This document shows, piece after piece, positions 12,082-35,688 of a stretch of 64,000 nucleotides of DNA (positions are counted from its first letter, which is position 1; the number at the start of each line of letters is the position of its first letter). Made by a program: the position numbers and the translations under genes. The notes under the pieces were generated by a model. That model made no database searches, was not told the DNA's origin, and saw only the letters and a program-made list of their open reading frames with translations. Source of the stretch: Rhodospirillaceae bacterium (GTDB taxonomy: Bacteria > Pseudomonadota > Alphaproteobacteria > UBA8366 > Aestuariispiraceae); NCBI GenBank assembly GCA_002709955.1, contig PAQY01000008.1, positions 30,472-94,471 of the forward strand, written 5' to 3'.

Positions 12082-12088
12082 TCAACGT

Positions 12089-12123
12089 TCCTGCAATTGA
12101 GAATTATTTGGAATTTTGCAGGA
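12089..12123. promoter_or_regulatory. Inverted repeat upstream of the multicopper oxidase
   Basis: TCCTGCAA (12089-12096) is repeated in inverse as TTGCAGGA (12116-12123), separated by 19 bases of AT-rich sequence. It lies just upstream of the Tat-signal start at 12081. The spacing resembles a dimeric operator. No regulator for it is evident nearby, so this is a candidate only. Confidence 0.35.
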
Positions 12124-12264
12124 GCTATAATTTGAAGCAACGACTAAGATTATTGAAGCCAAGCCTCGTCGCTGCGCGGACTGCGGACGAAGCTCCGGCT
12201 GGCGTGTCGGAGGTGATGGAAAAGCGGCGTACCGAGAGAAGGCTGGCCGTGTGGCCGCGTGCCG

Positions 12265-12591
12265 TCAGGCGGGACGCGGCCCCCAGATGATGATCGCCGC
12301 ACCAAGGAGACAAACCGTGGCGCCGGTCACGTCCCAACGATCCGGGCGTTGCGCTTCGACTACCCAGAGCCACAAGAGCGACGCGCCAATATAGAAGCCG
12401 CCATAGGCAGCGTAGGCGCGGCCCGCGAAATCGCTGTCGATGCGTGTCAGCAGCCAGGCAAAGAGAGCAAGGCCGGCCATACCGGGAACGAGCCAGAGCG
12501 GCGAGCGGTCCAGACGCAGCCAGGCCCAGAAGGCGAAGCAGCCGGCAATTTCCGCCAGTGCCGCTCCTATGTAGATTGCAAGTGTCGCCAT
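12265..12591 (-). CDS. YnfA/UPF0060 family small membrane protein
   Basis: 108 residues, the exact usual length of YnfA. Four predicted helices begin [17 protein letters not shown]. The conserved signature of the family is visible ([11 protein letters not shown] near residue 60) and it ends in [10 protein letters not shown]. YnfA proteins are SMR-like inner-membrane proteins implicated in multidrug export, and in metal islands they accompany mercury operons. The start at 12591 overlaps the stop of the merR gene by one base (TGATG), so it is co-transcribed with that regulator. Confidence 0.88.
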
Positions 12592-13004
12592 CACGATGCC
12601 AGCGCCTCCAGTACCGGGCATTCAGGCACCTCCTCGCCGGAGCACTGCGCGGCGGTCCCCGCCAGCACCTTCTCGATCCGCTTGAGGTCGGCGATCTTGG
12701 CACGGACGTCGGCGAGGTGCCGCTCGGTCCGTTCCTTCACCTCGGCGCAGGTCTGCGTGCCGCCATCGACGAGATCGAGCAGGCCTCGGATCCCATAGAT
12801 GGAAAAGCCGAGTTCGCGAGCGCGCAGGATGAAACGCAGCCGCGAGACGTGGGCTTCGTCATAGACGCGATAGCCGGACGCCGTGCGCGGCGGATCGGGC
12901 ATCATGCCTGTCTTCTCGTAATAGCGGATGGTTTCGAGATTGCAGCCCGTGCGCCTCGCCAGTTCGGCGCGTTGCAATGTCTTCCCGGAAACGTGATCGG
13001 TCAT
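12591..13004 (-). CDS. merR: Mercury-responsive MerR regulator
   Basis: 137 residues. Winged-helix N-terminus ([20 protein letters not shown]), then a dimerisation helix carrying the three cysteines expected of Hg(II) sensors: TCAEVKER, and [10 protein letters not shown] further on. The loop between the last two is one residue shorter than in Tn501 MerR. The start at 13004 is chosen because the track's longer version reads across the operator. It is divergent from merT across a classical mer-type promoter and overlaps ynfA. It represses mer without mercury and activates it with mercury, and likely autoregulates. Confidence 0.9.
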
Positions 13005-13017
13005 CTCAAAATACCTC

Positions 13018-13048
13018 TTGAGTCTGTAGTTGCTACAGACTGTAGCTT
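13018..13048 (+). promoter_or_regulatory. merT operator/promoter
   Basis: TTGAGT (-35, 13018-13023) and TAGCTT (-10, 13043-13048) are separated by 19 bp. The spacer carries the dyad GTCTGTAG-TTG-CTACAGAC. This is the standard MerR architecture, and it sits between divergent merR and merT. The half-sites differ from those of the second MerR regulon at 15.5 and 17.0 kb. Confidence 0.88.
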
Positions 13049-13078
13049 GCATTCAATTGAACTTCGAGGGAAAACCGC

Positions 13079-13477
13079 ATGAGCGATATGGAAATTGAAA
13101 CAACAATGCCGGACGCGGCGTTGGAAACCAGCGATCGGCGCAAGGGCTGGTTCGCAACCGGCGGCGTCATCGGCGCAATCCTTGCCTCCACCTGCTGCAT
13201 TGCACCGCTCGTGCTGCTGACACTTGGCATATCCGGCGCGTGGATCGGCAACCTCACCGCGCTTGAGCCCTACAAGCCGATTTTCGCGGGCGTGGCGCTC
13301 GTCTTCATCGGGCTCGGCTTCCGACAGGTCTATTTCAAGGCCAAACCAGCCTGTGAGGACGGCTCCTATTGCGCACGGCCTGAATCCGCTCTCATCACCA
13401 AATCCGCCCTGTGGCTCTCGACGGTACTAGTCGTCCTGGCACTGACCATCAATTGGTGGGCGCCGTTTTTCTATTAA
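13079..13477 (+). CDS. merT: Mercuric ion transporter MerT
   Basis: 132 residues, three predicted helices. The vicinal Cys pair in helix 1 (STCCIAPLVLL, about residues 38-39) receives Hg(II) from MerP. The cytoplasmic loop has the second Cys pair (ACEDGSYCARP), which hands it to MerA. The C-terminus ends in NWWAPFFY. It has a slightly long hydrophilic N-terminus compared with Tn501 MerT. It is the first gene of the mer operon, 13 bp before merP. Confidence 0.92.
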   Translation: MSDMEIETTMPDAALETSDRRKGWFATGGVIGAILASTCCIAPLVLLTLGISGAWIGNLTALEPYKPIFAGVALVFIGLGFRQVYFKAKPACEDGSYCARPESALITKSALWLSTVLVVLALTINWWAPFFY

Positions 13478-13490
13478 GGAGAAGACCCCA

Positions 13491-13826
13491 ATGAAATCGA
13501 AGTTCTTTATTACCGCTGGATTGCTTGTTCTGGGCATATCCGGACTACCTCTCGTCGCCACTATCGCGTCGCCGGTCCTTGTTTCAGCGGCTCAGGCTGC
13601 TTCGAGCGAACAGACCGCCACCTTCGATGTGCCGGGTATGACCTGCGCGCTCTGTCCTGTCACGGTGAGAAAGGCAATGGAAAGCGTTGAGGGTGTTCGG
13701 TTGGTGACGGTCGATTTCGATGCCAGGACGGCAACCGTCGTGTTCGATCCGTCCGAGGCGAGCATCGATTCCATCGCGACCGCCTCGGAGAACGCCGGCT
13801 ATCCGGCACATATCGCCGGAGAATGA
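13491..13826 (+). CDS. merP: Periplasmic mercury-binding protein MerP
   Basis: 111 residues. A signal peptide (FFITAGLLVLGISGLPLVATI, ending near AQA) precedes a single HMA fold with the metal motif GMTCALC. The second half matches the beta-alpha-beta-beta-alpha-beta pattern (VRLVTVDFDARTATVVFDP). It scavenges Hg(II) in the periplasm and passes it to MerT/MerF. Co-transcribed with merT (13 bp) and merF (4 bp). Confidence 0.93.
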   Translation: MKSKFFITAGLLVLGISGLPLVATIASPVLVSAAQAASSEQTATFDVPGMTCALCPVTVRKAMESVEGVRLVTVDFDARTATVVFDPSEASIDSIATASENAGYPAHIAGE

Positions 13827-13830
13827 GCCG

Positions 13831-14061
13831 ATGAGCGATCCGTCCCATGTAAGCCTTGGGTTGATCGGTGGAGCGGTTGCGGTGCTGTGCTGCCTTGTTC
13901 CCCTGTTGCTGGTATCAAGCGGCGGCGTCGTGCTCGCCGCCCTGGCTAGCTATCTCGGCTATGTATGGATCGCTCTCCCCATTCTGGTGGCCGGACTGGC
14001 AGCCTACCTTCTGTTACGGCGCGCAAAGCTCCGCAACAATCGCGCTGAAAGGAGCCACTGA
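13831..14061 (+). CDS. merF: MerF-like mercuric ion transporter
   Basis: 76 residues with two transmembrane helices in a hairpin. The first carries a vicinal Cys pair (AVLCCLVPLLL), followed by a short SSGG turn and a second helix ending in a basic tail (LRRAKLRNN). MerF is a minimal Hg(II) importer. The second Cys pair present in classical MerF is not seen here. The start at 13831 is chosen because the track's longer reading extends through merP. The stop overlaps the merA start (TGATG). Confidence 0.82.
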   Translation: MSDPSHVSLGLIGGAVAVLCCLVPLLLVSSGGVVLAALASYLGYVWIALPILVAGLAAYLLLRRAKLRNNRAERSH

Positions 14062-15485
14062 TGAACGATTGCTGCGCGCCGCGAGCTGACCGCACCTACG
14101 ATCTTGCCGTTATCGGGGCTGGTTCAGCAGGCTTTTCCGCCGCGATCACGGCCGTCGGAGAGGGGGCGAAGGTCGCCCTCATCGGGCACGGCACGATCGG
14201 CGGTACCTGTGTCAATGTCGGCTGTGTACCCTCCAAGACCATGATCCGCGCCGCTGAGGCGGTGCATGGCGCAGGCGCTTCGAGTCGGTTTCCGGGGCTT
14301 GCCGGAGAGGCCCATGTCAGCGATTGGCGCGCACTGGTCGCGGCCAAGGACGATCTGGTCGGGACGCTCAGGCAGAAGAAATATATCGACCTGCTGCCCG
14401 AATACGATGGTGTCGCATATCTGGAAGGCGCCGCACGGCTCAATGGTTCGGGCGTGCTGGTGGACGGAAGTCCGATCAGCACCGGCAAGATCATCATCGC
14501 CACGGGTGCATCGCCGGCGATTCCTTCCATCCCCGGCATGGAGCGCGTTCCTTACCTCACCAGCACCACTGCGCTGGAGCTTAAGGAACAGCCGCGCTCG
14601 CTACTGGTCATCGGGGGCGGCTATATAGGCTGCGAACTGGCGCAGATGTTCGCGCGCCTCGGCACCAGGGTGACGCTGGTCACGCGCTCGCGCCTGTTGC
14701 CTGAGGCGGAACCGGAAATTGCCGAGGCGCTTACCGGCTATCTGGTCGGCGAAGGCATCACTGTACGCGCTGGCCTCAGCTATTCCGGGATCAAAAGCGG
14801 TGACGGCGAAATCGCGTTAAGCGTTGACGTGGATGGTCGAATTGAAACGTTAACCGCCGAAAAGGTTCTTGTGACCACTGGGCGCGTACCTAACACCGCC
14901 GACCTTGGTCTTGTCGAAAGTAGTGTGGAATTGGCCCGCAACGGCGGCGTTGTTGTCGATGACCGTATGCGCACCACCCGCGAGGGTGTCTACGCCGCGG
15001 GTGACGTCACCGGGCGCGACCAGTTCGTCCATATGGCTGCTTATGGCGCCAAGCTCGCCGCGAAGAACGCTTTGAACGGCGACAGCCTCATCTATGACAA
15101 TTCCGCCATGCCTTGGGTGGTGTTCACCGATCCACAGGTGGCTGGAGTCGGCTTTTCGGAGAAACAGGCTCGCGAACGCGGTTTCGAGATCAAGACATCG
15201 GTTGCGCCGCTCGATCAGGTGCCGCGCGCGCTGGCCGCCCGCGATACGCGCGGGCTGATCAAGCTAACGGCCGATGCAAAGTCAGATCGGTTGCTGGGAG
15301 CGCAGATTCTCGCTCCTGAAGGTGCGGACAGCATCCAGACCATAGTGCTGGCGATCAAGTATGGAATGACGACCAAGGAACTGGGTGAGACGATCTTTCC
15401 CTATCTCACCACCGTGGAAGGGCTCAAGCTCGCCGCCCAAGGCTTCGACAAGGACGTCGCAAAGCTCTCCTGCTGCGCGGGATGA
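14061..15485 (+). CDS. merA: Mercuric reductase MerA
   Basis: 474 residues. A flavin disulfide reductase that uses NADPH to reduce Hg(II) to volatile Hg(0) in the cytosol. FAD-binding GAGSAG near residue 20, redox-active pair in GGTCVNVGCVPSKT near 50-55, NADPH-binding GGGYIGCELAQMF near 190, and the C-terminal vicinal cysteines (LSCCAG) that receive substrate. No N-terminal HMA (NmerA) domain is present, though the first residues MNDCCAP add another Cys pair. It is the last gene of the merTPFA unit. Confidence 0.95.
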   Translation: MNDCCAPRADRTYDLAVIGAGSAGFSAAITAVGEGAKVALIGHGTIGGTCVNVGCVPSKTMIRAAEAVHGAGASSRFPGLAGEAHVSDWRALVAAKDDLVGTLRQKKYIDLLPEYDGVAYLEGAARLNGSGVLVDGSPISTGKIIIATGASPAIPSIPGMERVPYLTSTTALELKEQPRSLLVIGGGYIGCELAQMFARLGTRVTLVTRSRLLPEAEPEIAEALTGYLVGEGITVRAGLSYSGIKSGDGEIALSVDVDGRIETLTAEKVLVTTGRVPNTADLGLVESSVELARNGGVVVDDRMRTTREGVYAAGDVTGRDQFVHMAAYGAKLAAKNALNGDSLIYDNSAMPWVVFTDPQVAGVGFSEKQARERGFEIKTSVAPLDQVPRALAARDTRGLIKLTADAKSDRLLGAQILAPEGADSIQTIVLAIKYGMTTKELGETIFPYLTTVEGLKLAAQGFDKDVAKLSCCAG

Positions 15486-15531
15486 CAACATTTGATCCGG
15501 TCAAAACTGTCGTGAACCGCCTCTTCAATTG

Positions 15532-15563
15532 TTGACCCCGTACCAATATACGGAGTCTATTGT
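15532..15563 (+). promoter_or_regulatory. MerR-type promoter of the MerR-HMA operon
   Basis: TTGACC (-35, 15532-15537) and TATTGT (-10, 15558-15563) have a 20-bp spacer. The dyad CCGTA-ccaata-TACGG (15538-15553) occupies it. It lies upstream of, and on the same strand as, the MerR-HMA gene, so the regulator should control itself and the CcdA-like gene behind it. The half-sites match those at 16961-16980. Confidence 0.75.
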
Positions 15564-15583
15564 TTATGGGGAGATGAGACAGC

Positions 15584-16258
15584 ATGGCAAGAGCGATGAC
15601 CATAGCCCGCGCCGCCGAACAGGCCGGTGTCGGCGTCGAGACGATCCGGTTTTACGAACGACGAGGATTGATCGAACAGCCATTGCGTCCAAGCGGCGGC
15701 GGCTATCGCCATTATGAACGCGAGACTGTCGAGCGCATCCGCTTCATCCGGCAGGCACAGGAACTCGGATTCTCGTTGTGCGAGATTGCCGAACTCCTGG
15801 CGTTGAAGACGGATCCGAATGCAGACTGTTCTGATGTGCGTATGCAGGCTGTCGCCAAGCGCCAGGATGTGGACGGCAAGATCGCACAATTGGAGGACAT
15901 TCGCTCGGCGCTCGATGTGCTCATCGCCAGATGTCCCGGTGGCGGGGATTTGAGCGCCTGCACGATCATGGACGCGATCAGCGAGCGACCAACGATGAAC
16001 ACTGCGCCTCACCTGGACGATGCGGCATCCAGAACACAATTGGTCAGGACCATCTTCGGGATCGATGGAATGCATTGTGTGGGCTGCGCGCGGACCGTCG
16101 AGGCGCTGCTTGGCGCCGAACCGGGTGTCGGCGAGGCCAGCGTCTCGTTCGAACGCCGGGAAGTTAGCGTCAGTTTTGACAAGGGCATCACGAGCGTCGG
16201 GCGGTTGAGGGAAGCGGCCGCAAAGGCCGGATATCACATCAGCGAAAGCGGGCTATAA
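15584..16258 (+). CDS. MerR-family regulator fused to a C-terminal HMA domain
   Basis: 224 residues. Residues 1-140 are a MerR regulator: DNA-binding IARAAEQAGVGVETIRFYE, a dimer helix with Cys near 82 (ADCSDV), and a metal loop with ARCPGGGDLSAC. After a linker, residues 155-224 form a heavy-metal-associated domain with GMHCVGCARTVE. A tethered HMA could feed metal to the sensor or buffer it. The three-Cys pattern and a CCGTA/TACGG operator resemble mercury MerR systems more than CueR. It overlaps the next gene by one base (TAATG). Regulation of the downstream 17-20 kb operon is inferred from the shared operator. Confidence 0.85.
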   Translation: MARAMTIARAAEQAGVGVETIRFYERRGLIEQPLRPSGGGYRHYERETVERIRFIRQAQELGFSLCEIAELLALKTDPNADCSDVRMQAVAKRQDVDGKIAQLEDIRSALDVLIARCPGGGDLSACTIMDAISERPTMNTAPHLDDAASRTQLVRTIFGIDGMHCVGCARTVEALLGAEPGVGEASVSFERREVSVSFDKGITSVGRLREAAAKAGYHISESGL

Positions 16259-16935
16259 TGGAATTCAGTTTGTTCAATCTTCTCATTCTACCGGCAGGGC
16301 TTGGCCTGTTCGGCTTCATTGAACCCTGCTCAATCGGTTCCAGCCTGATCTTTATCAAATATCTGGAAGGCAAGGAGAGAGCGCAGAAATTCACCGAGAC
16401 GGCGGTTTTCGCGCTCACGCGCGCGCTTTTCATCGGCGCTCTTGGCGTGGCGGCGGTGCTGGTCGGGTCTGCATTTATCGGGTTCCAGCGCGGAGCCTGG
16501 ATCGTGCTCGGTCTTGTTTATGCGGCAATCGGGATTCTCTATCTCATCGGGCGCGCCGGATTTCTCATGCGTTCGATCGGGCCGCGGCTCGCCGGTTTGA
16601 GTGGTGCGCGCGGTTCGGTTGGGCTCGGTCTTATCTTCGGTCTCAACATTCCCGCCTGTGCCGCGCCATTGCTTCTGGTTCTGCTCGGCGTTGCAGGGGC
16701 CGATGGCGCCAGCGGCGACGCGGCTCTGAGTGGGTTCATATCGCTTGGAGTGTTCGGTCTGGCCTTGTCCCTGCCGCTCGTTGCGGCTGTGGCATTCAAA
16801 CCGGCGCGCCGTCTGTTCGACCATCTCGCGGGGCTTTCCGCCAAAATACCGTTCTGGGCAGGGGGGTTGCTCATCGCGCTTGGCCTTTGGTCGATCTGGT
16901 TCGGCCTGTTTTCCGCTGTGCCGGAACTGGCCTGA
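16258..16935 (+). CDS. CcdA-like cytochrome-c-biogenesis-family membrane protein
   Basis: 225 residues, six predicted helices. The family Cys-containing motifs are present in altered form: FGFIEPCSIGSSLIF in helix 1 and GLNIPACAAPLLLV in helix 4. It is shorter than the 4.8-kb CcdA and differs in flanking residues (EPCS, IPAC). It is translationally coupled to the MerR-HMA regulator. A role in reducing or transporting thiol-bound metal across the membrane is plausible, and a canonical cytochrome c role is unlikely without partner genes. Confidence 0.8.
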   Translation: MEFSLFNLLILPAGLGLFGFIEPCSIGSSLIFIKYLEGKERAQKFTETAVFALTRALFIGALGVAAVLVGSAFIGFQRGAWIVLGLVYAAIGILYLIGRAGFLMRSIGPRLAGLSGARGSVGLGLIFGLNIPACAAPLLLVLLGVAGADGASGDAALSGFISLGVFGLALSLPLVAAVAFKPARRLFDHLAGLSAKIPFWAGGLLIALGLWSIWFGLFSAVPELA

Positions 16936-16956
16936 CAGTCCGGCAGAAGAAAGCGC

Positions 16957-16988
16957 TTGACTCCGTAGTTTAGTACGGAGGGTAGGCT
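16957..16988 (+). promoter_or_regulatory. mer-like operator/promoter upstream of the 17-20 kb operon
   Basis: TTGACT (-35, 16957-16962), 20-bp spacer, TAGGCT (-10, 16983-16988). The perfect 7-bp dyad CTCCGTA-GTTTAG-TACGGAG lies at 16961-16980. The -35 plus first half-site reads like the Tn501/Tn21 mer operator. No regulator gene is divergent from it, so the MerR-HMA protein encoded 0.7 kb upstream is the probable ligand-dependent activator. Confidence 0.8.
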
Positions 16989-17001
16989 GGCCCCTGAGAT
17001 C

Positions 17002-17021
17002 ATCCCGCATGGTTGCGGGAT
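17002..17021 (+). promoter_or_regulatory. Leader stem-loop before the 17-kb gene
   Basis: ATCCCGCA and TGCGGGAT form a perfect 8-bp stem with a 4-base loop, entirely within the predicted mRNA leader. The ribosome site GGAGG follows about 10 bases later. It may stabilise the transcript. No alternative pairing that would mask the ribosome site is obvious. Confidence 0.4.
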
Positions 17022-17040
17022 CACCGTACCGGAGGCCGCC

Positions 17041-18524
17041 ATGACCCTATTTTCCGCTTTGACGAGAACAATCGCTGCGTACGCCGTTCCCGCCTCGCTC
17101 GTTACAAACCTTGCATTTGCGCCGTCTGCACGGGCTGCCGACGAATTCCATTATGACGAAAGCAATGTCCGCCCGGCGGTGTATTTCGCCGCGCTATCCA
17201 ACCTTGCCAACGCGGTGATGTTTTCCGGCCTCGGCGAGGCGCTGGTGATTTCACCCTATGAGCGCGACGAATGGTTGCGCCGTGCCGGTTTCGTCACCCG
17301 GCCCGAGATGCCGGACATGGCGGCGGTTGGCCCGGTTTACGCTGGTGCTCGGCCGGCCTTCGTGGGCACGCCGGATTTCGCCGTACCTCGGACGCTGGCC
17401 TGGGACGCGTCCACCTTCGACCGCACACTCGACCCGGCCGCACAGGCCTGGGCGATGATCAAGATCACGAGCCCCGAGTTCCACATGCAGTTCCATGACC
17501 TACCGGACAATAAATTGGCGGCCCTGATGGTGATTCCGCAGGCACGCGCCCAGGCGCAGACGCTTGGCGCGCGGCTGACGAGCGCCGATGGGCTGTTCGC
17601 GCCGCTGGCATCTAGCGGCAACCTTGGCGCGGCGGTTCCACGCGACCAGATTGCCGTGCTGTGGGCGGCGTCGAACATGGTGCTGGCCGGAACGAGTGCG
17701 CGCGATGACTACTGGCACGCCGCCTACCGGGACTTGACGGCTGCCGAGAACTATCGCCCGCTCTTGAGGTAAGCCTTCGCGGACGTCACGGCAATGCCAC
17801 CTGAGACCCCAGCCGAGCGCGGCCTTGCGGTAGTGGCATTGGGGCGTTTCGCCCTGGCCACCGATGATTCGGCGCTCAGAGGCGAGGCGCTGACGCTGGC
17901 GCGCACCTATGCGGAAAGCCTGGCCAAAAACCTGACGGGGAGCCCGGCACGGCCATCGAGGATATAGCGCTTGCCATCTACGGGTTGACAGAGGCCAGGC
18001 GGCTGTTGGCCGAACCAGCCTTTGCCGAGGCGGCGCAGAATTTGTTTAGCGACCGGCTGATACCGCTTTGGGATGACGAGGCAGAGCTGTTTCGCCGTGG
18101 CGAGGCGCCGGTGACCTATGACCCGCGATCCGCCGGTGCGGTCGTGGCAGCTCTCAATGCCGTGCGCTGGCACGGTTCCGATGCTGAGGCTGAGCAGGCT
18201 TCTGCGCTGTTTCCCCGCTTTTTCGAAAGCGTGATTGTTCGCTCCGGCCTCATGCAGGCGAGCCCGCTGCCACTGGTGGTCGCGCCTTATCTGGAAGGAG
18301 AGCCGGCGGAGCACTTCGCCCATCCCATATTGCCCGGAGCAGTATCGACAGCGCCGGTCTTTGCCTCTGAAGTGATCTTCGAGGACGGTGTCTGGCGGGT
18401 GAGCGACCCGACCTTCCACACCGGCGACGCACTGTTCCTGGCCAATATGCTGGCGATCCGCAGCGAGAATGGCCGCAGCGACCTGTTCCTCTCCGACGAC
18501 CTGCTGACCGGCTTGAAGAGGTGA
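17041..18524 (+). pseudogene. Disrupted secreted protein of unknown family (about 495 codons)
   Basis: The first ORF (17041-17772) begins with a signal peptide (cleavage near ARA/ADEFHY) and stops at TAA 17770-17772. The same frame then stays coding-like (AFADVTAMPPETPAERG) until about 17935, where sense continues in another frame as TAIEDIALAIYGLTEARR and on through the second ORF to 18524. One stop and one frameshift thus break a single gene. The product would be an alpha-helical periplasmic protein of roughly 490 residues. I do not recognise the family. It sits between a mer-like promoter and the copper-type ATPase, 4 bp before that gene. Confidence 0.75.
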
Positions 18525-26440: not shown

Positions 26441-27361
26441 CTATTTCCAGGGACCGCCGACGACCCATTTACACTCGAGCGGCTTATCGACGACGAGTGA
26501 CTGGACGGGTGGCAAAACAAATGCTGACACCTTGGTCTGCATCTCAACGAACGACCCTGGTGCGATGGAAAGGGCTGTTCTGCGAAGAAATCCCTGCCAT
26601 TGTGCCCGCTTCGCGGCGTCTTCGGCAAAGGCTGGCGTCAGCGCGACGGGCGTCTCCACAGGGATGGTCGTGTGGCGGCGATCAAAGGTCGCTGCGATTG
26701 CATCCGCGAGGATCGATCCATCGAAGGCAAACGTCTCCGAGATCGCCCAGAGATCGAAGAAATCCTTCATGCGGCTGTTGAGCATGCCGAGTGCGACCAG
26801 CGCCTGGAACTTCTCGGCTACGACCGTCTCTGGCGGATAGGCGCGTAATCGCGGCGCTGGCATGTCGAGTAGCGAGGGATAGTTGATTTCCAGCACTGCC
26901 GGGGTCACGGCATCGCCAAATCCGATGTCGATCTGGATAGGCAGGCGCGCACCGGCGATCTCGGCGGTCATGGTGATCCGGACGCCGCTATACTCGTCTT
27001 CAGCCCGGGCCGGCTCGGCCTGCAGGGTTTCCGGCTTGAAGACCACGCCGTCGTCCTCGACGTCGATCCCGCAGACCGCGCGGAAGTTAGCAGCAATCCG
27101 CTCCGGCGACGCATCGCCATATCCCAGAAGATCGAGATCGCCGGTCGCTCGATACGGCGTGGGTGTCCAGAGACTGAACAGCATGGCACCCTTGAGGACG
27201 AATTGATCTTTGTGGGGCGACAGACTCAGCCGGTAGAGAAGTCGTTCGATGGCGAAACGGGTCAGCGCAAGCTGAACGTTTTCCTTGCGCTCACGGGCAG
27301 CGTGAGTGAGTCGTGCACGGACCGAGGCGCCGACATTCTTGAGGGGTGGCTTCGGGGTCAC
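26441..27361 (-). CDS. abiEii: AbiEii-type nucleotidyltransferase toxin
   Basis: 306 residues. The nucleotidyltransferase core shows the acidic pair in ATGDLDLLGYG near residue 75, a third acidic region in LPIQIDIGFGD, and the conserved Lys segment PETVVAEKFQALVALG near 185, followed by SRMKDFFDLWAI. AbiEii/MenT toxins transfer nucleotides to tRNA or other targets and stall growth, giving abortive infection or plasmid stabilisation. It starts with a GTG overlapping the antitoxin stop (GTGA), as is typical. The C-terminal end lies 14 bp from an IS3 scar but appears complete. Confidence 0.87.
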   Translation of the reverse strand: MTPKPPLKNVGASVRARLTHAARERKENVQLALTRFAIERLLYRLSLSPHKDQFVLKGAMLFSLWTPTPYRATGDLDLLGYGDASPERIAANFRAVCGIDVEDDGVVFKPETLQAEPARAEDEYSGVRITMTAEIAGARLPIQIDIGFGDAVTPAVLEINYPSLLDMPAPRLRAYPPETVVAEKFQALVALGMLNSRMKDFFDLWAISETFAFDGSILADAIAATFDRRHTTIPVETPVALTPAFAEDAAKRAQWQGFLRRTALSIAPGSFVEMQTKVSAFVLPPVQSLVVDKPLECKWVVGGPWK

Positions 27362-27972
27362 AGGGTCGCCTCGATATAGGGCCGTATGACATTCTGCACG
27401 CGGTCGATGGCAGCGAAATGCCAGAGGTCGTCAATTGTGGCGCGGCGGTTTCGGATACAGTCTCTCAGCGCTTCGATAGCGACATCGAGACCGATCTGGT
27501 TGCGGTATTTGAAGCAGTCTGCAACCGTCTTGGCCGGATTGGTGATGGGGACGTCTACCTGCTCGATTGTATGAAACGTCACACCGGCCGTCAGGGCTTC
27601 GCCGGTGGCGCGCATAATACGGAGGGATACAGGCGGGTTCTTCGGTGCCCATTTCTTGTGACCGATCAGCATCCAGACCTGATGCGGCAGTTGGGTCGTG
27701 AGTTCGTGGAATCTGAGCGCGGAGAGCAGGCAGATGGTGCCATGGGGCACTGTTCGGCTGGCTTCCGCAAGGCTATGAGACTCGGACCATTCCGCATCGG
27801 CAAGCTGATAGAGACCGCGCCCCATGCGCACCAGAAGCCCCTGATCCTGCAGTCGCCGCAGATAGGCACGGGGAACGCCCCCTGCATCGAAATCGCGGGC
27901 GCGCGCGATGCCGCGTTCCCTGGCGATTGTCAGCGCGCGATCCTTCAGCGTTCCTTGGGTCGGTTCAGTCAT
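27358..27972 (-). CDS. abiEi: AbiEi-type antitoxin / autoregulator
   Basis: 204 residues from ATG 27972. The N-terminal winged helix (RGIARARDFDAGGVPRAYLRR, then GLLVRMGRGLYQL) binds DNA. A middle and C-terminal domain includes TICLLSALRFHELTTQLP and TNPAKTVADCFKYRNQIG, both typical of AbiEi. It neutralises AbiEii by a non-contact (type IV-like) mechanism and represses the operon. The longer track start reads into the upstream promoter region. The gene is coupled to abiEii by a 4-bp overlap. Confidence 0.87.
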   Translation of the reverse strand: MTEPTQGTLKDRALTIARERGIARARDFDAGGVPRAYLRRLQDQGLLVRMGRGLYQLADAEWSESHSLAEASRTVPHGTICLLSALRFHELTTQLPHQVWMLIGHKKWAPKNPPVSLRIMRATGEALTAGVTFHTIEQVDVPITNPAKTVADCFKYRNQIGLDVAIEALRDCIRNRRATIDDLWHFAAIDRVQNVIRPYIEATL

Positions 27973-28132: not shown

Positions 28133-29005
28133 TCAATACAGAACAACCTGGCAAATCGACAGACTTTTACCATTCGTTGCCTGGATCGTTCGCACGATAC
28201 TGAGGCAGGGGAACGGGGTAGGGCCATGATTGGCGTATTTGCCCCTGTAGGCCAGTTCTATCCGATAAAGACTATCCAGACGCTCTGGAGCGACCGCCAG
28301 AAGGTTCGTCAGGATTCGGGCATTGGCGCTGGTCGCGGCACGCACAAGGTCGAGCCCCGGCCGCTGTAGCGCCGCCACCGTTTGCAGCAGATCGCGGCCT
28401 TCCCGGGTGCCCAAATACTCGATTGTCGTCTTGTCCAGGTCGGCGCGCTGTTCCGGTGTCAGTGAAAGCAGCCAGCGTAACAGTGTTGGTGCGTTCCCAA
28501 CTGCCGTGACGGCGTCGTTGATCAGGACAAGAACCGGACCGATCTTGGATTCAGGTAGGTTGGCGATATGACGAACAAATATCTGGATGGCACCATCCTT
28601 GCCGATCAGAGCCTCGTCCTTGAGGCCTGTCCATTCCGGCAGATAGTGGCGCCATTGCGTGCCCTCGACCGGTCGATCCAGATTCATCGTCAATGCCATG
28701 GCCTCGTTGGAGAGACCCAGCCGGGCCTCCAGTTCCGGTTCTGACAGATCGAAGCGATCCAACCCAATGGCCTGCAATCGTTTGAGAATCTGTCGTTCGC
28801 TTCCGCTCATCGCACGGAGATTGTCCAGATGATCGGAAGGAGGATGTAAACTCCATATGACCGCGCCGAGCGAGCAGGCGCCCAGTACAAAGCTCCCGAC
28901 AAGGAGACCCAACAGCCGTCGTGATTTTGTCCGGACACGCGTGACGAACTCCTGCTGGGCTTCTGACGCTGCCATCCGCAGCGGAACGGGCATTTGACTA
29001 TTCAT
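28133..29005 (-). CDS. Membrane-anchored protein of the mobilisation operon, unknown function
   Basis: 290 residues. The start at 29005 has a strong GGGAGG site and overlaps the stop of the ParA-like gene. One transmembrane helix (LLGLLVGSFVLGACSLGAVIW) at about residues 32-52 anchors a long, mostly helical domain with no recognised motif. The C-terminal 40 residues have few charges and may be a junction product. Being the terminal gene of the ParA-like operon, it could be a membrane partner for that ATPase. That is inference. Confidence 0.6.
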   Translation of the reverse strand: MNSQMPVPLRMAASEAQQEFVTRVRTKSRRLLGLLVGSFVLGACSLGAVIWSLHPPSDHLDNLRAMSGSERQILKRLQAIGLDRFDLSEPELEARLGLSNEAMALTMNLDRPVEGTQWRHYLPEWTGLKDEALIGKDGAIQIFVRHIANLPESKIGPVLVLINDAVTAVGNAPTLLRWLLSLTPEQRADLDKTTIEYLGTREGRDLLQTVAALQRPGLDLVRAATSANARILTNLLAVAPERLDSLYRIELAYRGKYANHGPTPFPCLSIVRTIQATNGKSLSICQVVLY

Positions 29006-29894
29006 CACCGCCTCCCTGCTCAAGGGGGATCAATCCGGCAACACGGAAGCTTTCGATGGCGTGCGAGATCCATTGCAGCAGATCCGCCCGCGCCCCGCTG
29101 GCCGCGAACATGTCGAGATGAAACTCCTGCGCCACATCCTGAGTGGTCATTGGGATGATGGAGCGCAGGGGTGTGTAATTGCGTTCCAGAGAGGGCCATA
29201 TCTCGCTGCGGCACTGTGGCAGGCGGACGATCTTCAGACCTGCATTGTGCTTCATTGCGCTCAGTCGCTCGAAATCACCACTGCTGCCATATCGCTCGAA
29301 ACCGCCGCTGGCTTCGTTCAGGACAAGAATACGGGCTGCAATCGGAAGGAAGGCATCCTCGCGGATGGAACGCTCCAGGACGGCAAGCGCATCCTCGATA
29401 GCCTGTGCCTGTGCACGCACCGGGACGACCAGGACAATCTGTGGCGCCTTTGCACTGCGCAGCACTTCCCCGGCATTGCGGGCATGGGCCCAGTTCCAGA
29501 CTGTATCCACCAGGTTCGCACCGATATCGACGAGTGCATTGCCCGAGGCCAGAATGCTGCCGAGTTGGTCCCAGTGGGAAACAACTTTCGACGAATCCGA
29601 CCGTACCGCATCGAATTCAGCGCCGATGCCGAGTTCCAGGACAGAACCGCGGTGGATCTTGCCAAGTTTTGATACCGCGTCGGCGGTCGACGAATCTGCG
29701 GAGGCAAGAAATTTGGAAATTCCCACCTCTTCGAAGGCGAGAGCAATCAACTGAGTGATAAGGGTCTTCCCCTGACCCCCGGTCCTGTTGCAGACAATCA
29801 CAGAACAGGATTTAGGATCAATCTTCTCACCCCATTGTGGTGAGGTAAGGGTCCGGTACAGTCTTTTCGATGAGGATGTGTCGTGCGTATTCAT
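28998..29894 (-). CDS. ParA/MinD-like P-loop ATPase
   Basis: 298 residues. A deviant Walker A (CNRTGGQGKTLITQLIALAF) near residue 36 fits the ParA/SIMIBI class, although the signature Lys of KGGxGKT is replaced by Thr. LASADSST takes the place of the Asp-containing A' motif, and a hydrophobic strand (QIVLVVPVRAQAQ) precedes helices. ATPases of this type in integrative elements act in partition or in presenting DNA for conjugation. Upstream lies a small basic protein and a relaxase-like gene, downstream a membrane protein overlapping by 8 bp. No ParB is recognised. Confidence 0.7.
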   Translation of the reverse strand: MNTHDTSSSKRLYRTLTSPQWGEKIDPKSCSVIVCNRTGGQGKTLITQLIALAFEEVGISKFLASADSSTADAVSKLGKIHRGSVLELGIGAEFDAVRSDSSKVVSHWDQLGSILASGNALVDIGANLVDTVWNWAHARNAGEVLRSAKAPQIVLVVPVRAQAQAIEDALAVLERSIREDAFLPIAARILVLNEASGGFERYGSSGDFERLSAMKHNAGLKIVRLPQCRSEIWPSLERNYTPLRSIIPMTTQDVAQEFHLDMFAASGARADLLQWISHAIESFRVAGLIPLEQGGGDE

Positions 29895-29912
29895 GGGGGG
29901 TTCCTTTATATA

Positions 29913-30317
29913 TCAGGTATCGAGGAGATCGGAGAGGCCGCGTATCGGTTTTTGTTGCGGACTATCCCGGCTCCTTGGCCGCATGTTCTGGATCAAGGGT
30001 TTCGACGGTAACGGTCCGGTAACAAGGTTATCTGCGCTAGGTTGGCTAGCTACTTTGTTTAGTCGCGTTCGGGTCCGTGACAGGAGCGATCGCAACTGGC
30101 TGCCCGTCACTGGTCTACCGGTTTTCCATCGCAGGCCTTCGCCCGAAAGCAGTTCCGCGACATTCGACCAGGTGCCCAGTTCCGCATGGAGTGTCAGGAG
30201 CAGATCGCGGTTCAACCGCACGAACGGCCCCACACCCTGACGCAGACTTTGTTCCCGCTTTTGGTTGGCAAGCTCTTCCGCTGCTCGCTTCAATCGGATT
30301 TCGAAGGGCTCTTTCAT
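29913..30317 (-). CDS. Small basic protein of the mobilisation operon
   Basis: 134 residues if started at ATG 30317; an in-frame ATG at 30392 would add 25 residues, and neither has a good ribosome site. The protein is rich in Arg and Leu, with a coiled-coil-prone start (EIRLKRAAEELANQKREQ), a central segment TGRPVTGSQLRSLLSRTRTR typical of a DNA-binding helix pair, and a disordered tail. It may be an accessory nicking or partition protein. I do not recognise a named family. Confidence 0.5.
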   Translation of the reverse strand: MKEPFEIRLKRAAEELANQKREQSLRQGVGPFVRLNRDLLLTLHAELGTWSNVAELLSGEGLRWKTGRPVTGSQLRSLLSRTRTRLNKVASQPSADNLVTGPLPSKPLIQNMRPRSRDSPQQKPIRGLSDLLDT

Positions 30318-30486
30318 GGCAGCGCCCCGGAATTCGCTGCGCAGATCGATGTGCCAGTTGCTGCGGTTTTCGCTGTGGCTCGCGCTGTACATAATGATGC
30401 GGTTGCCGCTGCGATAAGGTCCCCTGATTTGTGAGAGGGACTTACACCGTATCGCACTACATTTTTGGCCCGGGGCATCATTCACC

Positions 30487-31128
30487 TCACATCTCGAAAT
30501 CATCGCGCACGCGCCGACGCTTTTTGCGGGGTGGTGTTACTGGGCGAGGGGGTTCGAAGGGGACAACGGGCGGCGGAGGCGCCTCACTCTTGACCTCTTC
30601 CTTTTTGACCTCATTGTCCGAGGCGACTTCAATCTCCATCTCGAACGGACAGGCTTCGTTAAGCCGCTCCCGAATGCGGTGCATGGAAACGCTTCGCCCT
30701 GTTTCAGGAGAGGGAAGGGCGATAACGGCATGGAGATGGACCGATGGGGTACTTGCTGCAGCCGGAATGTTTGGTTGATGGAAGGCCAGAAGGGTCACTC
30801 TATCCGTTACGCCAAGCGCATCCGTCGCAGCGAAGAACGACTGAATCAGGGTATCCTTTGTATCTTCCAGATACCGGCCTTCCTCCGCTCGGGAGGGAGA
30901 GAAGGTGAGGTGCAGGACCGTGTGCTTCAGGTCGTCGCGAGTCTTCGATATTTCCGATACGATCTGCATGGCCTCAGAGGCTTTCATGGGCCCCAGTACC
31001 GATAATCCACTGTTCAGCAGATAGATGTCCGTGACTTTGGTATCGTCCTGATCGTCATGGGCTCCTGTACGGAGCACATAGCGCAATACATTGGCGGCGG
31101 TCCGCCCGCGTGTTTCACGGGTGATCAT
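30487..31128 (-). CDS. Relaxase-like mobilisation protein
   Basis: 213 residues. HLTFSPSRAEEGRYL near 70 and the beta strand SVHLHAVIALPSPETGR near 130 resemble the HUH relaxase fold, with an HxH pair that could coordinate metal. The first tyrosines are YVL at residues 17-18. The protein is shorter than full relaxases and has a Pro/Arg-rich C-terminal tail (PPPPVVPFEPPRPVTPPRKK). AGGAT lies nine bases before the start, which overlaps the RHH-like gene by 14 bp. I take it as a minimal relaxase or a paralogous DNA-processing protein; catalysis is unproven. Confidence 0.55.
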   Translation of the reverse strand: MITRETRGRTAANVLRYVLRTGAHDDQDDTKVTDIYLLNSGLSVLGPMKASEAMQIVSEISKTRDDLKHTVLHLTFSPSRAEEGRYLEDTKDTLIQSFFAATDALGVTDRVTLLAFHQPNIPAAASTPSVHLHAVIALPSPETGRSVSMHRIRERLNEACPFEMEIEVASDNEVKKEEVKSEAPPPPVVPFEPPRPVTPPRKKRRRVRDDFEM

Positions 31129-31558
31129 GATTGTTGATCCTTTCTATGATGGTCGCGACAAGGCGCGGGTGTGGGGTGTTCGGTGGTGGCAGCACATGGG
31201 GATCCAGCACGGAAGCGATTGACCCACCGCCCGTTCGTGCACGGTTATGACGTTTGATGAGTGTGGCCGCGTGGATCAGTAGCGTTCGGGCAAGCTCGCT
31301 GTTCTCTTCGTCGGCTTTGCCAGATACGACAAGAGAGTGAGCCGCCCGAGTAAGGACAATAGTATCGGCCATTGAATGGTGCCTGGCATTCTGCCGTGAC
31401 TGCAATTTCCCAGATGAGCGGCGTTGCTTTGAGCTGCTTTGGCCCAAAAGCATCCATTCTATAACTTCTGTGCGGGAGCAGCCTTGCTCAATACAAAGCA
31501 ATTCCAGCGCAGCTAGTGCGTCCGAGGACAGCCGAAAACTTGTTGGATTGCGGGCCAT
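31115..31558 (-). CDS. Ribbon-helix-helix-like mobilisation accessory protein
   Basis: 147 residues from ATG 31558. The N-terminus (PTSFRLSSDALAALELLCIE) followed by CSRTEVIEWML fits a ribbon-helix-helix DNA-binding domain. A helical C-terminal part ends near IIERINNHDH. It overlaps the relaxase-like gene and follows the AlpA-like gene by 4 bp. Such proteins (MobC/TraY type) bind oriT and assist relaxase loading. The track's 31642 start is rejected since it runs into the AlpA gene. Confidence 0.6.
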   Translation of the reverse strand: MARNPTSFRLSSDALAALELLCIEQGCSRTEVIEWMLLGQSSSKQRRSSGKLQSRQNARHHSMADTIVLTRAAHSLVVSGKADEENSELARTLLIHAATLIKRHNRARTGGGSIASVLDPHVLPPPNTPHPRLVATIIERINNHDHP

Positions 31559-31562
31559 GCCG

Positions 31563-31772
31563 CTAGCCCGCCGTGGATGTACGTCTTTGCTTTTCGAGCC
31601 ATTCAAGCAAGTCGTTGGCGGAGTAGCGAATGGCTCGGCCACCTACTCGAATAAAAGGAGGGCCATCACTTCTGGTAACGCGCCAATTGGCGAGAGTTGA
31701 TTTTGATATTCCAATTATCTTGGACACTTCAGAAGGCGTATATAAAACACCCATTTGAACATTCTCATTCAT
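31563..31772 (-). CDS. AlpA/excisionase-family helix-turn-helix protein
   Basis: 69 residues. MerR-like winged helix with YTPSEVSKIIGISKSTLANWR and the wing RVGGRAIRYSANDLLEWLE, the standard AlpA/Xis motif. These small proteins activate integrase or act as directionality factors of integrative elements. It heads a leftward operon of five or six genes up to 28133. An AT-rich regulatory region with direct repeats lies immediately upstream. Confidence 0.8.
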   Translation of the reverse strand: MNENVQMGVLYTPSEVSKIIGISKSTLANWRVTRSDGPPFIRVGGRAIRYSANDLLEWLEKQRRTSTAG

Positions 31773-31843
31773 AGCGGAAGTCCCTTCTGTTGAGAGACTT
31801 TACGCAATATCAAATGCTAACAATCAAAACTACCGAATAATTC

Positions 31844-31897
31844 AATATAAAATTAGAATTATTCGCAAAATATCAAATATAAAATTAGAATTATACG
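31844..31897. repeat. Two direct 22-bp AT-rich repeats, 32-bp period
   Basis: Copies start at 31844 and 31876 and differ at one position: AATATAAAATTAGAATTA then T(T/A)CG. The 32-bp period is about three helical turns, so both face the same side of the DNA. They lie about 75 bp upstream of the AlpA-like start. They could be operator sites, oriT-related sites or a small iteron set. Confidence 0.6.
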
Positions 31898-31899
31898 AC

Positions 31900-32040
31900 A
31901 AAATTGAATTTTATTGATATGAAATTAAAAATTTTTCTTTGGTAAAGGTGTGAATACAACAATATATACTGACAGTTAACCTAGGCCATACCTAAGTCAG
32001 GGAATGGAGGCGAATAGTACTTTACTTGATGGGTGAGAGT
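31900..32040. other. AT-rich spacer, no gene seen
   Basis: Very AT-rich up to about 31970, with poly-A/T stretches and no ORF of interest. It probably contains the promoter of the AlpA-like operon reading left. I could not fix the -35 and -10 hexamers with confidence because many near matches occur. Confidence 0.35.
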
Positions 32041-32601: not shown

Positions 32602-33594
32602 TCATTTTCCATCTTTAGGTAAAGCTTTTTCTTCGAGCATTTTTTTTGCCGTTTCAACATGCGATCGGATGGCAGAAGAACTAAATCCTTTATAGTATGT
32701 GTTAAAAAGAATTATAGTATAGTGATTTATGCACTTCTCAATCTCACCATTTTCTTTTAATTTTTCCATTACTTTCATTAATGCTGTTTTATTTCTAATA
32801 TGGTCAACAGCATTGTTCTTTTCGCCTTTATTTACACGTATTGCGCCGTTCTGTGAGAGCATGTCTAGAATTCTACGCTCTTCTGTGGTTAAATTTACAC
32901 CTGAGAATGGATAATCTAATTTACTCGTATTCTCCGTCTCTTGCTCTTTGTTTTGGGATGCAATGGTATCGTGTTTTGTATCGACCCTATCAGAGTTTTC
33001 GATTTGATTGACCGCCTCTGCATTACGGGCATTTACTGTAGATTCGGAATGGCGTTCACCAGTACGCTTGTAAATACAAATCCAAGAATATAGCGCAGTT
33101 TCTAAGGCGAGATCATCACATCTTATTTCAATTGTTCGTAATGAAGTCGCGGATTTGTCCGTTAATATTACCATCGTGGGAATACCAAAATTCTTCTTAG
33201 TTTTTAGTATCCTAATTTTATTTCGTTCATGCTTATGTAACCAACCATTTACTATTAGGTAAACAATCTGTTTATTTTTTGATAAACTCTCCAAGGCAAT
33301 ACCATTGCCATTTTGATCAACGGTCCATTTTTCTCTAGAAATACCAGATTTACGAATGCTCCACTGGAAGAGAAAGTGCCTGCTCATAAAATACACAGAA
33401 GAAAGAGATCCTATTGCAAACAAAAGTGGAAAAAATGCTAAAGCTACCATTGCATTGTGCGGAGCAAGGAAATTACTTGAGTATATTGCGAATACTATCG
33501 GTGTTGCGGCCAGGACAATAGCCGAGTTAAGAAGTGGTGTCTTCTCGAACGTATTTGGAAAGTAGAACTCAAAATTTTGTGGGACGCGAAACAT
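32602..33594 (-). CDS. AT-rich cargo gene: two-helix membrane protein with C-terminal winged-helix-like domain
   Basis: 330 residues with an excellent AGGAGG site. Two helices near residues 24-41 and 48-69 (ALAFFPLLFAIGSLSSVYFM) anchor a cytosolic PH-like segment (SREKWTVDQNGNGIAL, IRILKTKK). A charged, disordered linker follows (about 180-225), and then a domain beginning LTTEERRILDMLSQNGAIRV that resembles a winged helix. I recognise no family. Codon use and A+T content are far from the neighbours, so it was acquired recently. Position beside an integrase suggests island cargo, possibly signalling or defence, which is speculation. Confidence 0.7.
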   Translation of the reverse strand: MFRVPQNFEFYFPNTFEKTPLLNSAIVLAATPIVFAIYSSNFLAPHNAMVALAFFPLLFAIGSLSSVYFMSRHFLFQWSIRKSGISREKWTVDQNGNGIALESLSKNKQIVYLIVNGWLHKHERNKIRILKTKKNFGIPTMVILTDKSATSLRTIEIRCDDLALETALYSWICIYKRTGERHSESTVNARNAEAVNQIENSDRVDTKHDTIASQNKEQETENTSKLDYPFSGVNLTTEERRILDMLSQNGAIRVNKGEKNNAVDHIRNKTALMKVMEKLKENGEIEKCINHYTIILFNTYYKGFSSSAIRSHVETAKKMLEEKALPKDGK

Positions 33595-33759: not shown

Positions 33760-33816
33760 ATGAGTTTGAAGTCCGCTTGTTCTCTCAGGATGCAGGGAGA
33801 TGGATAGAGATACTTT
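33760..33816 (-). repeat. Left copy of a perfect 57-bp inverted repeat
   Basis: This sequence is the exact reverse complement of 35592-35648. The identity breaks sharply at both sides. In the right-hand copy, the last bases (CTCAT) are also the start of the tRNA-fMet 3' fragment. Together the two copies flank the integrase and one small gene. Confidence 0.92.
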
Positions 33817-34286: not shown

Positions 34287-35480
34287 TCAAAGCACCGCTT
34301 TGGGACGCATAATGTCTCCGACCAATACCCCCACCTTGTCAGATGCATCCCGAAGCGGATCTTGAGATAGATGGGCATATGTAGACGTGGCCGACATGGA
34401 CCGATGGCCCAGCAATCCGCCAATAACAGGAAGCGATGCTCCAGTTGTTACGCCGAAGCTTGCAAAAGAATGGCGCAGGTCATGTATACGAACATCGTCC
34501 AAGCCAGCTCTTTTCCGAATCCTGCGCCATGGCTTTTGCAAATTGACCAGGGGTGCATTTTTTCTGAGCCCTGTGATCACATAGGGGTTTTCTGGGTCAC
34601 GGGGTATCTCCTTTAGAATATCGAGCGCAATCGCATTGAGAGGAAGTGCCTTTATGCCGCTAACATCTGTTTTGTGTTCGCGCAGGATAAGCAAACGTCG
34701 ATCCCAATCGATATCACTCCAGCACATGTTTATGATTTCACCGGATCGTGCGCCGGTTACGATTAACAGGCGGATCGCCCCTGCAACATGCGGTGAGATA
34801 AGACGTTCATTCTCGCTGTCATCAATTGCTTTCGCCAGCCTGGCAAGCTCTTCCCGGGAGAGGAACCGCTGGCGCTTCTTTTCTCTGAATGGGCGGATGG
34901 ATACTGCTGGATTGCCACCCTTTTCCAACAAGCCCCACAACTCGGCATGTCCCAGCATGGCCTTTAGAAGTCCAAGGACCCGGTTTGCGTTGTAGGGCGT
35001 ACCTATTAAGGATTGGTGTAGATGACCAATATCAGCACTGGTCAGTTCGGAAAGTAGAAACCGTCCCATTTTTGGCAATATGAACTTATTCAGCAGCCAG
35101 TTGTGCGCTTCGATGGTTGACGGCTTGCAGCGTCCCTCACAGTGCTCTTGCATGTACCGGGCTGCCAGATCTGCGACTGAGTTCTCGTTTCGCTTGCGCA
35201 GGCGATCTGCTCGAGGGTCTCTACCCCGGCTCGATGCGCTGAGAAGGGTTCGGGCTTCGGTCCTGGCTTCCTCCAGTGTCATTATGCCAAAGCGGCCAAT
35301 CGTATGGCGGCGTGATTTGTTGTATTCATTGCGGTACTGGATCATGAAACTCACCGTGCCCGACGGTTTAACCCGAATGCCAAAGCCTGGCATCGTGGTG
35401 TCCCATGCAACGATCTCCTGACCTTGTATGCGGGCCGCTTCACGTGTCTTATCGATCGTGGCCTTGGCGAGCTTTGACAT
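34287..35480 (-). CDS. int: Tyrosine recombinase / integrase of the genomic island
   Basis: 397 residues from ATG 35480. An N-terminal arm-binding domain of the P4/DUF4102 type (IVAWDTTMPGFGIRVKPSG) is followed by a SAM-like core-binding domain (SVADLAARYMQEHC). The catalytic domain has Arg I in VTGARSGEIINM, Lys on the beta-hairpin (REHKTDVSG), HxLR in IHDLRHSFAS and Tyr in STYAHL. It catalyses integration at a tRNA 3' end. The tRNA-fMet fragment lies about 160 bp beyond its start. It is flanked by the 57-bp inverted repeats, and its upstream region contains a GGTAAGCA pair. Confidence 0.92.
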   Translation of the reverse strand: MSKLAKATIDKTREAARIQGQEIVAWDTTMPGFGIRVKPSGTVSFMIQYRNEYNKSRRHTIGRFGIMTLEEARTEARTLLSASSRGRDPRADRLRKRNENSVADLAARYMQEHCEGRCKPSTIEAHNWLLNKFILPKMGRFLLSELTSADIGHLHQSLIGTPYNANRVLGLLKAMLGHAELWGLLEKGGNPAVSIRPFREKKRQRFLSREELARLAKAIDDSENERLISPHVAGAIRLLIVTGARSGEIINMCWSDIDWDRRLLILREHKTDVSGIKALPLNAIALDILKEIPRDPENPYVITGLRKNAPLVNLQKPWRRIRKRAGLDDVRIHDLRHSFASFGVTTGASLPVIGGLLGHRSMSATSTYAHLSQDPLRDASDKVGVLVGDIMRPKAVL

Positions 35481-35494
35481 TACTCCCTCCATTG

Positions 35495-35591: not shown

Positions 35592-35648
35592 AAAGTATCT
35601 CTATCCATCTCCCTGCATCCTGAGAGAACAAGCGGACTTCAAACTCAT
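35592..35648 (+). repeat. Right copy of the perfect 57-bp inverted repeat
   Basis: Exact reverse complement of 33760-33816. Its right end enters the tRNA-fMet fragment by five bases (CTCAT, the anticodon loop). This suggests the repeated unit is an island-side attachment arm plus part of the crossover core. Confidence 0.92.
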
Positions 35649-35688
35649 AACCTGAAGGTCGTAGGTTCAAATCCTACCCCCGCAACCA
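35644..35688 (+). other. 3' fragment of tRNA-fMet (attachment junction)
   Basis: From the anticodon loop CTCATAA to the encoded CCA: the variable region GAAGGTCG, the T-arm GTAGGTTCAAATCCTAC and acceptor strand CCCCGCAACCA match an initiator tRNA-Met. The 5' half is absent, and the anticodon stem's 5' side is replaced by unrelated sequence. This is what remains at one junction after integration into the tRNA anticodon loop. By orientation, the island extends to the left and the intact tRNA would be at the far left end, outside the window. Confidence 0.85.

Follow-up and report, generated by a model that had tools for sequence, protein, structure and literature searches.

On MOBF and MOBP plasmids, homologues of the ATPase StbB, including TraL_RP4 and MobD, are encoded in three-gene operons of the leading region, and in one StbB group the sequence SGxxGK(T/S) replaces KGGxxK(T/S) (PMC3098194). 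In plasmid R388, transfer ceases when StbB is lost; losing StbA increases transfer and makes the plasmid unstable, and removal of the entire operon has no effect on transfer (PMC3098194). Among integrated elements, the IncP-type islands, integrative mobilisable elements (IMEs) with a MobP relaxase, TraJ and TraK, have already been reviewed, and Alphaproteobacteria are reported to contain relatives (PMC5704250). The operon considered here occupies positions 28133-31772 on the minus strand of a 64,000-nt window of DNA (G000:C7:30472-94471, G000 being the source genome and C7 its 170-kb contig), to which all unprefixed coordinates refer. It consists of seven genes encoding, in 5′ to 3′ order, an AlpA-like protein, a ribbon-helix-helix (RHH) protein, a relaxase-like protein, a 55-aa open reading frame (ORF), a 134-aa protein, a P-loop ATPase, and a one-helix membrane protein, and it probably constitutes a helper-dependent mobilisation module of an IME in tRNA-Met, with StbAB/TraKL-like functions placed in the relaxase operon.

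With StbABC of R388 (IncW, MOBF11; PMC3098194), the operon shares three consecutive genes of the small DNA-binding, deviant-Walker-A ATPase and small membrane types, an ATPase with D-x-G-A-S/N and S/TGxxGKT-kind motifs, and a position near transfer genes. In R388, however, stb and the relaxase gene diverge from opposite sides of the origin of transfer (oriT) and the relaxase is of the MOBF class, whereas here the corresponding genes lie downstream of a MOBP-like relaxase gene in the same operon, and the protein in the StbA position is not recognisably homologous. The IncP system TraJ-TraI/TraK-TraL-TraM (RP4, R751) is similar in its TraJ-type accessory gene, its MOBP-type relaxase and its TraK/TraL/TraM order. 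In contrast to the present case, it forms two divergent operons with a type IV coupling protein (T4CP) gene beside traI, and R751 TraI comprises 747 aa rather than 213. Like this locus, the IncP-type islands (PMC5704250) are integrated and helper-dependent and encode their own MOBP-type relaxase and relaxosome proteins; they differ in having relaxases akin to IncP TraI and in carrying some type IV secretion system (T4SS) proteins, whereas the relaxase here is highly diverged and neither a T4CP nor VirB4 was found on the contig. The closest outside relative combining StbA-like, StbB-like, and membrane genes resides on AZO_p1 of Azospirillum lipoferum 4B (L004), a plasmid-borne and divergent arrangement with a MOBF relaxase. 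The view taken in the original prediction, that the system is of a type its author did not recognise, is not fully upheld: the ATPase, the protein encoded before it, and the membrane protein match StbABC/TraKLM by position, and the ATPase also by motif and profile. Compared with known IMEs, MOBP relaxases, and Stb cassettes, the system differs in its relaxase (213 aa, sub-threshold, motif III altered), the lack of a recognised T4SS gene on the contig, the single co-directional operon, and the rarity of the arrangement.

The relaxase-like protein (30487-31128, minus strand, 213 aa) is built from a nuclease domain, a Pro-rich linker, and an Arg/Lys-rich tail, RKKRRRVR. Scans of public genomes revealed two independent relatives, one in the Rhodospirillaceae metagenome-assembled genome (MAG) SAT42 (L055; 41% identity) and one in an Alphaproteobacteria MAG (L047/L056; 33% for L047), besides an identical copy in a MAG of the same genus (G009/L054). 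In an alignment of three homologues, Y17, H117, and H131-L-H133 are invariant, providing the N-terminal catalytic Tyr and the His triad of MOBP relaxases and dispelling the doubt that an HUH-like (His-hydrophobic-His) protein might here lack its catalytic residues. Comparison by hhalign with a MOBP set (R751 TraI and four other relaxases) gave a probability of 93.6% (E 2e-7, 119 columns), the HLH falling on the HIH of TraI, and in profile scans the nuclease domain matched relaxase families, not Rep families. The RKKRRRxR tail following a Pro-rich linker is common to the window and L055 proteins and may serve as a T4SS signal. Relatives of the relaxase are rare: a single-protein search of 385 genomes of the class found one other genome, and a profile search of the same 385 added only a frame of 601 codons (G316) whose relaxase motif is of the ordinary kind; among 399 genomes of the phylum, the profile added one short interrupted match, and no relative was found among PLSDB plasmids.

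The ATPase (28998-29894, minus strand, 298 aa; Walker A NRTGGQGKT, motif LVDIGAN) is of the StbB/TraL type within the MinD/ParA superfamily, as judged by profile, fold, and motif. Its family profile aligned with a StbB/TraL set at an hhalign probability of 97% (E 8.8e-11, 184 columns), and the best single-sequence match was TraL of R751 (score 61, 175 columns); for most ParA-type controls the alignment covered 39-53 columns near the P-loop, and for one it covered 147. The comparison with PF01656 gave only 0.05. An AlphaFold2 (AF2) model with a predicted local distance difference test score (pLDDT) of 80 retrieved ParA2, MinD, and Get3 in Foldseek (E ~1e-6, probability 1.0). A D-x-G-A-(S/N) motif is present in six of six family members and seven of eight StbB/TraL proteins, as opposed to none of eight ParA-type controls, and TGGQGKT fits, on sequence grounds, the Walker A deviation of the StbB group with T for S. 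The degenerate Walker A and membrane partner noted in the original prediction were observed (TGGQGKT, one-helix protein) and have the look of a StbB/TraL-type cassette. A 528-codon frame elsewhere (L012 9256-10842), with a StbA-like segment at its start and a StbB-like ATPase in its later part, may be a natural fusion of both.

The 134-aa protein (29913-30317, minus strand), a putative DNA-binding protein, has the position and size expected for StbA/TraK. Its gene had been listed as 29913-30503 and most likely begins at the ATG at 30317, since its homologue L055:7913-8323 (41% identity) begins and aligns from that point. The one-helix protein in the StbC/TraM position (28133-29005, minus strand, 290 aa) bears a hydrophobic segment near residues 31-53. 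It matched nothing in a family profile scan, showed a weak and non-significant local likeness to its AZO_p1 counterpart, and had no significant similarity to the last gene of L055. These three genes adjoin the relaxase gene co-directionally rather than divergently. Their interpretation as a Stb-like cassette is supported by AZO_p1, where homologues of the 134-aa protein (28%) and of the ATPase (24%), together with a membrane protein, are divergent from a MOBF relaxase (PF08751 3e-50) in the R388 layout.

All six ORFs originally listed are present on the minus strand with the domain types named, the 55-aa ORF being an addition, and every reading frame of the operon is intact. The description of short, overlapping genes applies to the RHH/relaxase pair (14 nt, an overlap also present in L055) and the ATPase/membrane protein pair (8 nt) but not to the AlpA and RHH genes, which are 4 nt apart. 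The AlpA/excisionase-like helix-turn-helix protein (31563-31772, minus strand, 69 aa), encoded by the first gene, matches PF12728 (HTH_17) at 1.6e-11 and TIGR01764 (excise) at 2.2e-5, the latter below its cut-off, and has counterparts by pairwise score in L055 (z = 20.8) and L047 (z = 8.2). Upstream of alpA, a repeat search located A+T-rich direct repeats of 32-nt units (31805-31935), which are candidate operators or oriT-proximal binding sites. The RHH (CopG-type) protein (31115-31558, minus strand, 147 aa; PF01402 3.9e-4, marginally above cut-off) has a counterpart in L055 (z = 10.3) and, by position, would be a relaxosome accessory of the TraJ/MobC kind. The 55-aa ORF (30314-30481, minus strand) lies in the space left between the genes for the relaxase and the StbA-like protein, its stop overlapping the next start as ATGA, as also in L055, where a 75-aa counterpart (L055:7689-7916) holds the same position (score 47 against a shuffled mean of 27, 1/500, z = 4). 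The assembly is not a matter of chance, as the same order recurs: the series AlpA-RHH-relaxase-small ORF-StbA-like-StbB-like is complete in L055 (relaxase 41%, ATPase 44%, StbA-like protein 41% identity), and L047 partly retains it as integrase-AlpA-RHH-like-relaxase followed by a single ORF whose beginning is weakly StbA-like, the integrase adjoining alpA. The lack of conserved gene order that would have spoken against the original prediction was not encountered.

The operon lies in an island with its own tyrosine integrase, encoded upstream (34287-35492, minus strand, 401 aa; PF00589 2.9e-22, PF13356 1.7e-13), of which an identical copy in G009 adjoins the same attachment (att) site. The integration site is defined by att repeats in tRNA-Met: a pattern scan placed the right end at a 45-nt tRNA-Met 3′ fragment (CTCATAACC...CCGCAACCA; 35644-35688, plus strand), and G009, 99.97% identical to the window over 23 kb, ceases to be homologous exactly at 35688, with a different island beyond. 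A second 3′ fragment lies at G000:C7:92-136, and intact tRNA-Met genes are found on contigs C16 and C23. Tandem islands make the left end less certain; the island would measure about 66 kb if no further junction was missed. As befits an IME, it carries a relaxase domain without a complete T4SS. Neither T4CP (PF02534) nor VirB4 (PF03135) was matched on the contig, and the lack of type IV secretion genes noted in the original prediction is the defining trait of a mobilisable element; elsewhere in the genome, T4CP is encoded on C16, C23, and C24 and VirB4 on C15 and C24. The intact tRNA-Met on C23 neighbours genes for ParA/VirC1-like, RepA, T4CP, ArdC, ParB, and DUF736 proteins, a candidate conjugative element with a T4CP that shares the tRNA-Met hotspot. 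The earlier proposal of a minimal, helper-dependent mobilisation system is supported by the relaxase residues, the gene order, and the off-contig location of T4CP and VirB4. A plasmid is not required; integrated T4CP-bearing elements of the same genome are candidate helpers.

For excision, nicking, secretion, positioning, and helper identity, we infer the following course. The integrase and the AlpA-like excisionase or regulator would excise the island as a circle, after which the MOBP-like relaxase of 213 aa, together with the RHH protein, would bind and nick its oriT. The relaxase would remain on the 5′ end, its Arg-rich tail presenting the strand to the T4CP and T4SS of another element, while the StbA-position protein, the StbB/TraL-like ATPase, and the membrane partner might set the cell location of the circle or relaxosome towards the transfer pore. 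More tentatively, the relaxase may represent a subfamily not described before, consisting of a stand-alone nuclease domain of 213-253 aa whose motif III is altered. Its gene would share an operon with those for an AlpA-type excisionase and StbAB-type positioning proteins, and the excision of the circle, its nicking, and its delivery to a resident conjugation pore would thereby be co-regulated as a compact alphaproteobacterial IME unit.

Several observations weigh against a mobilisation module of this kind. The relaxase matches Pfam PF03432 (MobA/VirD2-like nuclease domain) at 3.2e-4 and 21.4 bits, below the cut-off of 24.6; the L055 relaxase also remains below it (4.3e-4, 21.0 bits), and a PF03432 scan of the third homologue gave no match. 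The acidic residue that follows the first motif-III His in classical MOBP relaxases (HxD) is absent, the three homologues reading HQP, HGA, and HAPD. The protein fails on both counts, HxD and the Pfam cut-off, and is therefore called MOBP-like rather than a member of MOBP, although homology is supported by the profile-profile comparison with the MOBP set. The HUH-fold check on the protein at 30487, which the original prediction had proposed, yielded a poor AF2 model (three sequences, pLDDT 64); its Foldseek matches, among them MobM and pCU1 TraI, were without significance, as was a fold search in PDB and viral libraries. No oriT was found. A stretch shared by the window and L055 between the relaxase and StbA-like genes, TACGGTGnAnGTCCC, was rejected as a nic region, being better explained as RYGxxP codons of the conserved small ORF. 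Moreover, the hhalign comparison of the 134-aa protein with the StbA/TraK profile was not significant (E 0.14), and the L047 RHH protein is not significant by sequence and its ATPase part is unrecognisable, both being very diverged. A diverged, sub-threshold relaxase lacking the Asp of HxD and yielding a poor model is what would be expected of a decayed remnant, a degenerate non-nicking domain retained through linkage to the integrase and to the neighbouring AbiE pair described below. That the locus is such a remnant is nonetheless quite improbable, given intact frames throughout, a maintained operon order, a Tyr and three His that are invariant across three genomes at 31-41% identity, and a near-identical copy in a second genome with a different neighbourhood.

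The ATPase belongs to the ParA/MinD superfamily, R388 stability requires StbA (PMC3098194), and integrated elements are probably maintained in a plasmid-like manner once excised (PMC5704250); the operon might thus serve mainly the maintenance or partition of the excised island, with the ATPase and the StbA-position protein segregating the circle and the HUH-like protein starting rolling-circle replication. The profile score alone is not decisive for the class of the ATPase because, once the Azospirillum row is removed, the TraL alignment still spans 165 columns but the IncC ParA scores somewhat higher. ParABS systems are recognised by a ParA with KGGxGK(T/S) and a D-x-P-P-type motif, plus a ParB partner. 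Here the signature Lys and the D-x-P-P-type motif are absent, the StbB/TraL motif is present instead, and profile scans found no ParB domain among the neighbours. Partition as the main function was rejected by the motif test against the eight ParA-type controls, and the mention of partition in the original prediction appears weak on the same grounds. Since, in addition, the StbB-type ATPase of R388 serves transfer and not stability (PMC3098194) and the nuclease domain resembles relaxases rather than Rep proteins, a maintenance role seems unlikely. Two chromosomes without a relaxase there encode single ATPases, 36-37% identical to that of the operon, between MoaB-like (moaB) and FtsE-like (ftsE) genes (L009 9589-10494, L010 9725-10630), which also counts against the mobilisation module. 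These lone ATPases, possibly a domesticated version, would suit an island regulatory operon (AlpA, RHH) in which the ATPase and the membrane protein serve a different process and resemble conjugation proteins by chance. With a relaxase domain and an integrase linked to the operon, and with the Azospirillum cassette adjoining a MOBF relaxase, this explanation is highly improbable.

Directly downstream of the operon, an AbiEi/AbiEii type IV toxin-antitoxin pair (26441-27972, minus strand; PF08843 7.5e-52, PF13338 1.8e-11; PADLOC AbiEi 9e-86, AbiEii 6e-144) likely stabilises the island. A 330-aa protein with N-terminal hydrophobic stretches, encoded between integrase and operon (32602-33594), had no match in a family scan. 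Perfect 57-nt inverted repeats (33760-33816 and 35592-35648), one abutting the tRNA-Met fragment at the island end, flank the integrase gene; they recur identically in G009 but in none of the other islands examined, and possibly represent a duplicated att arm or an invertible segment. Among the cargo within 9764-17772 are a multicopper oxidase (10939-11925) and, at 14061-15485, a pyridine-nucleotide-disulphide oxidoreductase with the look of a mercuric reductase. Altogether, tRNA-Met 3′ fragments occur on G009:C49 (L014-L017) and on G000 contigs C2, C7, C10, C11, C21, and C23; several lie beside a tyrosine integrase, and many have an integrase nearby, which shows tRNA-Met to be a tandem insertion hotspot. 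The cargo of the hotspot islands includes copper-type metal genes and genes of acyl-CoA/enoyl-CoA metabolism.

Many integrated islands without a profile-accepted relaxase appear immobile. Those bearing the relaxase type of this operon would be overlooked because it scores below the Pfam relaxase cut-off despite conserved catalytic residues and operon structure. The operon also places an ATPase of the StbB/TraL type, with a possible positioning role in conjugation, in a small system that would rely on a helper and has no T4SS itself, so that the effect of the ATPase would be separable from that of an own T4SS, and the stb deletion phenotypes of R388 (PMC3098194) yield a sharp prediction for the operon.

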